Shown piece after piece: positions 242 to 34,872 of a stretch of DNA of 64,000 bases. The position numbers and the translations under genes were made by a program. The stretch's first letter is position 1, and every line of letters starts with the position of its first letter. Source of the DNA: Microbacterium sp. MYb45. GTDB taxonomy: Bacteria > Actinomycetota > Actinomycetes > Actinomycetales > Microbacteriaceae. The stretch is taken from NCBI RefSeq assembly GCF_002979655.1, contig NZ_PCPG01000001.1, positions 806,001 to 870,000 on the forward strand, in the 5' to 3' direction. The notes beneath the pieces are model-generated. The model saw nothing but the letters and a program-made list of their open reading frames with translations. It was not told where the DNA came from and did no database searches.

Positions 242-247
242 TATCGT
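242..247 (+). promoter_or_regulatory. Candidate -10 element of the retron RNA promoter
   Basis: TATCGT fits the actinobacterial TANNNT pattern. Transcription would start about seven bases downstream, near 254, which is where the a1 arm of the retron RNA begins (252). No convincing -35 hexamer is seen at the right distance. The call rests mainly on position. Confidence 0.35.
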
Positions 248-251
248 GGCC

Positions 252-422
252 GCGTGCGATGGCTTGCGGACGAGGCGAGTGGTTCACGACGTGTTCCGCT
301 CTCTCCGGGGTCACCCCGGGGTACGCAGTCTGACCTGGAACGAACGCCGCAGGCGCCTTACTGCGCTTCGCGCAGACCGGTGCCCGCACTGATGGACGAG
401 TCGTACGCAGGCCATCGCACGC
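252..422 (+). ncRNA. Retron msr-msd non-coding RNA (predicted)
   Basis: This 171-nt segment ends 28 nt before the reverse transcriptase start. Its ends pair as retron a1/a2 arms: 252-273 with 401-422 forms 20 Watson-Crick pairs, one G-U (264/410) and one mismatch (269/405). Inside lie two small hairpins expected of msr: 277-282/296-301, with an inner 285-287/291-293, and 303-310/314-321 around loop TCA. Then comes one longer stem expected of msd: 349-350/386-387, 352-357/379-384 and 361-366/370-375 around loop TTC. The priming guanosine would be G274 or G275, just inside a1. Reverse transcription would then copy from about 400 back to about 322. The pairing is read directly from the bases. 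Assignment as msr-msd follows from retron architecture and the adjacent enzyme, and no covariance evidence was available. Confidence 0.78.
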
Positions 423-450: not shown

Positions 451-1821
451 ATGGCGCCCTCCACCGCATCACGCGTGCTGGGGCGCACGCCGCGACCGTT
501 GCCGTCGTTGGTGGCCGCCTCTCTGGCCGACGCTTTCCTCGCCTCACAGGTCTGGGCGAAGGAGCAGCTCGTCGAGGCCGGCGCGTACGTCATGGGAGCG
601 CGTCGCCGTTGGCTCTCTCCGCTCGTCGGCGACGTGTTGACCGCCTTCGTCCGCCCGCCTGTCGATGCCCCGCGACTGCTGACGTCGGTGATCCTCCGTT
701 CGCCCGATTTCGCCGAAGCGGTGCGCAAAGCCGACGAGCGCCGTTCGCCGCTGCGCATCCACCACCACGTAGTCGGTCCGTCGTCGTCGCAGCCGCCCTC
801 GGGCGCTCTTCCCCGCATCGACAGCATCCCGGATCTCGCCGCCATGCTCGATCTGGACGTCGGCCGGCTCCAGTGGTTCGCCGACACCAAAAACTGGAAT
901 CGGCGCGCGCGCACAGGGGCCTTGCACCACTACCGGTACGAGTGGCGCACACGGCACGGGCGGATCCCCAGGTTGCTAGAGATCCCGGAGCAACGGATGC
1001 GCCGTGTGCAGCGCAGTCTCCTGGAACAGGTGCTCGGCCTCATAGCCGTGAACGATGCCGCCCACGGTTTCATGCCCGGTCGCAGCGCGGCCACCGGGGC
1101 GGCGCTCCACACGGGGGCCGACATCGTCATATCCCTCGACCTCACCACGTTCTTCTCACGCGTGACGGGCGGTCGCATCTACGGAACACTTCGGCAGTCG
1201 GGACTGTCCGAACCCGTCGCGCACGTCGTGACCGGGCTGTGCACCAACGCCGTTCTTCCGCGCGTGCTTGCTGCCATGCCACCGGGCGGATCATCCGACG
1301 AGCGGTTCGCCCTGCGTCGGGCTCTGGCCACGAGTCATCTGCCGCAGGGCGCTCCCTCCTCGCCGATGCTTGCCAACCTCGCCATCCGGCGCCTCGACTC
1401 ACGGCTGACGGGATGGGCGGATGCCGTCGACGCGACCTACACGCGATACGCCGATGACCTCGCGTTCAGCGGCGGTCCGAGACTCGCGAAGCGACCTGAT
1501 GCCTTCATCCGTGGTGTGCAGCGGATCATCGAGGACGAGGGGCACGTTGCCAACCCGCGCAAAACGAGGGTCCGACGCCAGGGCGTCAGGCAGAGCGTGA
1601 CCGGAATCGTCGTCAACCAGCGAACGAATGTCTCACGAGACGACTATGACCGGCTCAAGGCGACGATCCACAACTGCGTCGTGCACGGTCCGCGCAGTCA
1701 GAATCACCGCCGACTCGACGATTTCCGCGCACATCTGCTCGGCCGCATCTCGTGGGTCGAGAGCCTGAACCCCCAGCGAGGCGCGAAACTCCGGGCGGAG
1801 TTTCTGCGTATCCGTTGGTGA
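451..1821 (+). CDS. Retron reverse transcriptase, myxobacterial-type, with N-terminal extension
   Basis: This RNA-directed DNA polymerase of 456 aa would copy the msd part of the RNA just upstream into branched msDNA. RT motifs are in order: NDAAHGF at 201-207 (retron region X, NAxxH-like), SLDLTTFF at 228-235 with the first catalytic Asp, GLCTN at 262-266, LPQGAPSSP at 297-305, catalytic YADD at 333-336, and the retron hallmark VTG at 383-385. Residues 1-140 are an extension without a recognised domain; myxobacterial retron RTs such as the Mx162 enzyme also carry a long N-terminal part. There is no maturase X domain or HNH nuclease, which argues against a group II intron. The ATG at 451 has no clear ribosome site, so a slightly later start is possible. 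No classical retron toxin gene is fused or obviously adjacent. Confidence 0.93.
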   Translation: MAPSTASRVLGRTPRPLPSLVAASLADAFLASQVWAKEQLVEAGAYVMGARRRWLSPLVGDVLTAFVRPPVDAPRLLTSVILRSPDFAEAVRKADERRSPLRIHHHVVGPSSSQPPSGALPRIDSIPDLAAMLDLDVGRLQWFADTKNWNRRARTGALHHYRYEWRTRHGRIPRLLEIPEQRMRRVQRSLLEQVLGLIAVNDAAHGFMPGRSAATGAALHTGADIVISLDLTTFFSRVTGGRIYGTLRQSGLSEPVAHVVTGLCTNAVLPRVLAAMPPGGSSDERFALRRALATSHLPQGAPSSPMLANLAIRRLDSRLTGWADAVDATYTRYADDLAFSGGPRLAKRPDAFIRGVQRIIEDEGHVANPRKTRVRRQGVRQSVTGIVVNQRTNVSRDDYDRLKATIHNCVVHGPRSQNHRRLDDFRAHLLGRISWVESLNPQRGAKLRAEFLRIRW

Positions 1822-34348: not shown

Positions 34349-34420
34349 TGCGCGATACTGGGATCGAACCAGTGACCTCTTCCGTGTCAGGGAAGCGCGC
34401 TACCGCTGCGCCAATCGCGC
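34349..34420 (-). tRNA. tRNA-Val (anticodon GAC)
   Basis: The cloverleaf is complete: acceptor GCGCGAT/ATCGCGC, T arm ACTGG/CCAGT with loop TTCGATC, anticodon loop carrying GAC between CTTCC and GGAAG. The discriminator is A and CCA is not encoded. Confidence 0.95.
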
Positions 34421-34447
34421 CCGTTGGGGCTATTCAGTTTTACCGTG

Positions 34448-34518
34448 AGGTGGCGACGGGATTCGAACCCGTGTAAACGGCTTTGCAGGCCGGTGCCTAG
34501 CCGCTCGGCCACGCCACC
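34448..34518 (-). tRNA. tRNA-Cys (anticodon GCA)
   Basis: Acceptor GGTGGCG/CGCCACC, discriminator U as expected for tRNA-Cys, anticodon GCA between CGGC and GCCG pairs, and T loop TTCGAAT. CCA is not encoded. It is transcribed with the neighbouring minus-strand tRNA genes. Confidence 0.94.
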
Positions 34519-34572
34519 GTGTGGATTGACCCCACGTGCGAAGAGTCTTCCGAAGAAGACCCTCTGCACTCG

Positions 34573-34645
34573 AGCGGATGACGAGACTCGAACTCGCGAC
34601 CCCAACCTTGGCAAGGTTGTGCGCTACCAACTGCGCTACATCCGC
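34573..34645 (-). tRNA. tRNA-Gly (anticodon GCC)
   Basis: Acceptor GCGGATG/CATCCGC, discriminator U, anticodon GCC within AACCTTGCCAAGGTT, and T loop TTCGAGT. CCA is not encoded. It is the first gene of the minus-strand Gly-Cys-Val tRNA run. Confidence 0.95.
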
Positions 34646-34796
34646 ATTTCGTTCCCGGTTGTCCCGGGCACTCATGAAACATTAGCCGAAGATTCCCCCT
34701 CCGCCAAACCCGCAGCGAATCTCGCGCGTGTCTCACAGAGTGGTCCGTACGGCCTCTGAGCGTCGGGTAGTATCGGTTGACGTACCCCACGGGTAT

Positions 34797-34872
34797 GGGC
34801 GATTGGCGCAGTTGGTAGCGCGCTTCCTTCACACGGAAGAGGTCATCGGTTCGAGTCCGGTATCGCCCACCA
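34797..34872 (+). tRNA. tRNA-Val (anticodon CAC), CCA encoded
   Basis: Acceptor GGGCGAT/ATCGCCC, anticodon CAC in CTTCCTTCACACGGAAG, T loop TTCGAGT, discriminator A and an encoded CCA. It faces away from the other three tRNA genes. The D and anticodon arms are almost the same as those of tRNA-Val(GAC), showing common descent. Confidence 0.95.

Follow-up and report, generated by a model that had tools for sequence, protein, structure and literature searches.

Described Retrons and the Microbacterium Locus

Retron-Eco1 (Ec86) has the same order of RNA elements as the RNA considered here, a 171-base gene at positions 252-422 of a 64,000-nucleotide stretch of the Microbacterium sp. MYb45 genome (below, the window), and it is the best structural match for residues ~115-456 of the predicted fold of the reverse transcriptase (RT) encoded by the adjoining gene (451-1821, plus strand). 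We consider it very likely that 252-422 belongs to a retron and encodes an RNA that the adjacent RT would copy, starting at G274, into branched, RNA-linked multicopy single-stranded DNA (msDNA). Retron-Eco1 differs in having an accessory protein predicted to be nucleoside deoxyribosyltransferase-like (NDT-like; PMC8989520, cited here, as are the other papers, from excerpts), whereas at the present locus no linked effector was found and the RT has an additional N-terminal domain.

An RT with an extended N terminus is also described for Mxa1 (Mx162), Mxa2 (Mx65), Sau1 (Sa163), and Nex2 (Ne144), and myxobacterial retrons resemble the window RNA in having the priming guanosine at the inner end of a1, in the context CAGC (Mxa1, Sau1) or GAGC (Mxa2) (PMC6868368). 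Mx162 is larger, with a 241-nucleotide transcript and a 162-nucleotide msd (PMC6868368), compared with the 171-nucleotide RNA and the predicted complementary DNA (cDNA) of 52-78 nucleotides here. For a setting without an effector, Retron-Bth1 of Bacillus thuringiensis is a precedent, as the excerpted account gives an unclassified RT and no obvious effector; it differs in the phylum of its host and in the interruption of its RT gene by a group II intron (PMC12548924).

Actinobacterial retrons were predicted earlier in bioinformatic surveys (PMC6868368), and thus the RT itself is no surprise; one survey noted low RT diversity in the actinobacterial phylum (PMC4244168). In the literature searched, we found neither an earlier report of the present RNA family nor a validated retron from an actinobacterium.

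Structure of the RNA

The features of the locus are listed below, where rows are those of an alignment of 34 RNA sequences found beside homologous RTs, the window included.

242-247, plus strand: predicted -10 element TATCGT of the RNA gene (TAnnnT in 33 of 34 rows)
252-273, plus strand: a1, 5' arm of the a1/a2 stem (covarying helix 1)
274, plus strand: predicted priming guanosine in the context GAGG (GAG at 272-274 in every one of the 34 rows; motif logic from PMC6868368)
274-348, plus strand: msr, comprising hairpin 1 (277-301), hairpin 2 (303-321, CTCCGGGGNNACCCCGGGG), and a linker (322-345), all enclosed by the short helix 274-276/346-348
349-400, plus strand: msd template, with a long stem (349-387) capped by GCGCTTCGCGC, followed by 388-400 (consensus helices 5 and 6)
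401-422, plus strand: a2, 3' arm of the a1/a2 stem (covarying helix 1)
451-1821, plus strand: retron reverse transcriptase, 456 amino acids (PADLOC models, RVT_1, predicted fold, motifs)
478-774, plus strand: N-terminal helical domain of the RT (five helices in a separate model; no convincing structural match)

Consensus helices 2, 3, and 4 fall in msr as delimited here, with a provisional msr/msd boundary.

A sequence-only reading of the window had proposed a complete retron RNA in the order a1-msr-msd-a2, and this interpretation is supported by covariation, by occurrence in the same genomes as the RT, and by the retron-type sequence and predicted fold of the RT. As it had described, 252-273 pairs with 401-422 over 22 positions (20 Watson-Crick pairs, one G-U, and one mismatch), and both the minimum-energy fold and the family consensus contain the msd stem (349-387) and the two msr hairpins (~277-301 and ~303-321). 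The 171 nucleotides fold at -94.8 kcal/mol (z = -4.90), and none of 200 shuffles was as low. The spacing from a retron-type RT was also given correctly, since the start codon at 451, read from the sequence, lies 28 nucleotides past the end of a2.

Either G274 or G275 had been offered as the priming base. The guanosine found directly after a1, at its inner end and within GAGG, in 34 of 34 rows is G274, whereas G275 is nearly invariant only. Because GAG at 272-274 never varies and GAGG resembles the GAGC priming context of Retron-Mxa2 (PMC6868368), sequence conservation makes G274 the likely priming base, in preference to G275. In the consensus fold it pairs with C348, which is likewise invariant (34/34), and this pair may mark the end of msd. 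The msDNA, originally proposed to be about 75-80 nucleotides long, could also be shorter, as stops between 323 and 349 would give 78-52 nucleotides. Hairpin 2 is almost identical throughout the family, with one variable pair in 34 rows, while the stems around it vary much more; such near-invariance suggests a contact with protein.

Covariation and Distribution

Left out of the alignment were near copies (L002-L004, L012-L017, and L020), distant rows from Modestobacter (L009-L011), and two further sequences, L060 and L063, that were missed by the alignment filter and found later by the covariance model (the genome of L060 is G929). The consensus fold contains 47 pairs, 30 of which have changes on both sides. 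In these pairs, 95.7% of cells are paired, compared with 41.0%-46.8% when partners are slid, and none of 500 shuffles reached the observed values. Since shuffles ignore relatedness, the slid-partner control and the independent models weigh more. The pairing originally described also exceeds chance: the fold predicted from the window alone, counted on the same 34 sequences, gives 90.0% of cells paired against 38.1%-46.0% with slid partners and changes on both sides in 34 of its 60 pairs, and no shuffle out of 500 was as good; two short helices of this fold are not conserved (59.4% and 63.2% of cells paired).

Most of the covariation is carried by the a1/a2 helix, where, for 15 of 17 consensus pairs, one or more rows carry changes at both positions. 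Hairpin 2, being nearly unchanging, gives no pairing evidence by itself. The sequence-only reading was to be abandoned if related genomes with the RT had neither conserved stems nor compensatory changes; the comparison gave the opposite outcome, a structured RNA whose a1/a2 stem, msr hairpins, and msd stem are conserved across relatives and covary.

The covariance model of the retron RNA (R1), which contains 27 of the 47 Microbacteriaceae RNAs while 20 lie outside it, detects this RNA in 47 of 396 Microbacteriaceae genomes. The identical 47 carry the RT at E <= 1e-50 among 398 genomes. In 45 of them both parts are on one contig, and in two drafts (G836 and G996) they are on separate contigs. 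A second model (R2), for which 26 sequences from outside Microbacterium were used, has the window RNA as its sole match in the genome of the window (152.7 bits). It matches 12 of 290 Microbacterium genomes, namely 11 with the retron RT and G279, where a relic (L138:6087-6210) retains a1 and both msr hairpins but has no recognizable msd or a2; RT matches within 13 kb of it do not go below E 0.013. Any RT match at all was obtained in 19 of 295 Microbacterium genomes; besides the 11 retron RTs, these are eight distant proteins (at most 33%-42% identity over part of the protein), and the R2 search found no retron RNA in any of the eight genomes having only a distant RT.

Outside the family, R1 detects candidates upstream of RTs in Modestobacter at 60-70 bits, in Tsukamurella at 65 bits, and in three other actinobacteria at 42-61 bits; a weak match lies upstream of a Burkholderia RT (36.9 bits). 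Searched against Rfam 15, the retron RNA gives no match to an RNA family at or above that family's cut-off.

The Reverse Transcriptase

The best PADLOC models for the RT are RT_other (7.9e-174) and RT_outgroup (PDLC03740; 5.1e-163); both cover nearly its whole length, and the models describe the RT only. The match to PDLC03740 would place the RT in the Mx162-like, or outgroup, class, to which Mxa1, Mxa2, Sau1, and Nex2 probably belong. The Pfam match is RVT_1. In the AlphaFold2 model, with a mean predicted local distance difference test score (pLDDT) of 88.7, the top structural matches are retron RTs, so that the protein falls in the retron lineage both by profile and by predicted fold. The catalytic motif is YADD in 57 of 60 RT rows and YVDD in three, and VTG of region Y is found in 48 of 60; the window RT has both YADD (residue 333) and VTG (residue 383). 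Among the matches listed, none has a stop codon inside the RT match. Where the sources name the family, the best 120 rows are mostly called "reverse transcriptase family protein" or "RNA-directed DNA polymerase."

Residues up to ~96 form a helical domain outside the RT fold, which has a pLDDT of 90.7 when modeled alone. Structure searches returned no convincing match for this domain, and no Pfam model scored above its cut-off.

Promoter Element and Strand Inversion

The TATCGT hexamer noted at 242-247, just upstream of a1, has counterparts at about the same place throughout the family: a TAnnnT element lies 29-33 nucleotides upstream of the priming guanosine in all but one of the aligned rows, including the window. 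Transcription from TATCGT is predicted to start near the 5' end of a1.

Of the 45 Microbacteriaceae loci with both genes on one contig, 39 have the RNA and the RT on a common strand. One could suppose that the RNA is a structured leader regulating translation of the RT messenger RNA, with no msDNA template in it, as its position 28 nucleotides upstream and the prevailing common strand would allow. Yet genus g281, in which 12 of 15 genomes have both parts, has the RNA opposite the RT strand in ten of these 12 and on the same strand in two (G1009 and G1077). In these ten retrons the RNA cannot be a leader of the RT, because it is on the opposite strand, and still both the RNA structure and the RT persist. 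The order a1, guanosine, two hairpins, long stem, and a2 is, moreover, that of retrons, and we regard a mere leader as extremely improbable.

The inverted arrangement, found at L065:1295-1516 and nine further g281 loci, contrasts with the single retron cassette described previously (PMC6868368). Nine inverted RTs form one fully supported group in the tree (the tenth, cut by a contig end, was left out), and therefore one inversion suffices. The palindrome CAGCCTAGGCTG, which reads TAGGCT in either direction, is located between the divergent RNA and RT in nine of ten inverted loci and in none of the 29 forward loci examined. In the tenth inverted locus, G1079 (L140:969-1018), the palindrome halves are ~40 nucleotides apart, and a separate TAGGCT still faces each of the two genes, the pattern that use of the palindrome in both directions would leave. 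We infer that CAGCCTAGGCTG would serve as the -10 element for the RNA gene and the RT alike. Bidirectional bacterial promoters, in which a nearly symmetric -10 element drives divergent transcripts, are known (PMC10268837); here the palindrome that separates the RNA gene from the RT suggests such a promoter.

Gene Neighborhood

Open reading frames (ORFs) of at least 80 amino acids were clustered in 46 loci of up to 16-18 kb each, four genera from outside the family included. Excluding the RT, none of 297 neighbor-ORF clusters occurs within ~3 kb of the RT in at least three genera, and two occur in two genera. Translated comparison of the 1.5-kb flanks gave six matching flank pairs over 787 between-genus locus pairs (42 loci), the best (E 5.7e-19) being confined to two genera. 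Among the linked neighbors and in the N-terminal domain, we found neither a type-specific gene beside the RT nor a fused known effector domain of retron types I-XIII. Thus the retron occupies several chromosomal contexts and has no constant companion gene. Within Microbacterium the surroundings are shared in part only, by the window with M. oxydans (L002) and by L005 with L006 and L109.

Since typed retrons have effectors, this could be an ordinary three-part retron with an effector gene that lies at another place in the genome or differs from host to host, and the neighbor test covered only linked genes recurring between genera. We consider this rather unlikely, as different chromosomal contexts share no neighbor and the RT retains an extra N-terminal domain. 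Because no effector gene is shared beside the RT, this helical domain is, by hypothesis, the best candidate for an effector or an assembly surface.

The surroundings are, on the other hand, kept within several genera (g313, g253, g271, and the inverted g281 group), as in the vertically inherited myxobacterial retrons (PMC6868368). This would suit a domesticated retron with a cellular role other than phage defense, and the truncated copy in G279 would suit a neutral relic. The patchy presence of the RT (11 of 295 Microbacterium genomes; 12 of 85 genera in the Microbacteriaceae search) fits defense instead, and the RT matches listed, lacking internal stops, together with the covarying RNA indicate that the system is not neutral in most genomes. 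Domestication or decay is in our view about as doubtful as a distant effector.

Proposed Mechanism

The route from RNA to msDNA proposed here is modeled on established retron biochemistry (PMC6868368, PMC8989520). The RNA would be transcribed from the TAnnnT element, and a1/a2 pairing would set the 2'-OH of G274 beside msd. The RT would bind the RNA, most likely at hairpin 2, start opposite G400, copy the long stem, and stop between 323 and 349, yielding a cDNA of 52-78 nucleotides; host RNase H would trim the template. The resulting particle of RT, msRNA (the RNA moiety), and msDNA would likely be a two-part anti-phage device. In the inverted genus the RNA and the RT would be made as separate transcripts, because the RNA gene is on the other strand, and would act in trans.

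Several points weigh against this reading. The retron is known here from its sequence alone, its msDNA being predicted, and the DNA form of the copied region folds no better than shuffles (61 nucleotides, z = -0.31). Unlinked, host-specific, or very small partners could escape the neighbor test. No effector or phage evidence for defense was found at the retron loci; phage defense is probably the role, a best guess by analogy with other retrons. Finally, the NAXXH motif of region X, present in 14 of 16 validated retrons (PMC6868368), is not exact in the window RT, which has NDAAH at residue 201 (N and H kept, A replaced). The exact motif occurs in one of 60 RT rows, the final H being common to all 60.

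Such degeneracy could also point to a retron-like RT that copies its RNA in another way, for instance as a DRT2-type system in which the template is copied without a 2'-5' branch. The lack of a shared effector beside the RT agrees with this, stand-alone defense RTs being likewise without one. We nevertheless judge DRT2-like copying improbable and prefer the branched msDNA of a retron. We advance only tentatively the complete scheme, in which the device consists of RT, msRNA, and msDNA with the N-terminal bundle as a built-in effector and, in one genus, the RNA is flipped, a single palindromic promoter fires both genes, and the parts act in trans.

With these results, the RT family gains an RNA partner backed by covariation, and the lack of a linked effector raises the question of what a retron alone can do. 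As a natural experiment, the strand-inverted genus suggests that the RT and the RNA need no common transcript. Retron editing has already been carried into actinobacteria with retrons picked from an experimental census (PMC12262390), and it may be extended by a compact pair of RNA and RT that is native to GC-rich hosts.

Elsewhere in the window, four transfer RNA genes cluster at positions 34349-34869; one is on the plus strand, and the other three are on the minus strand.
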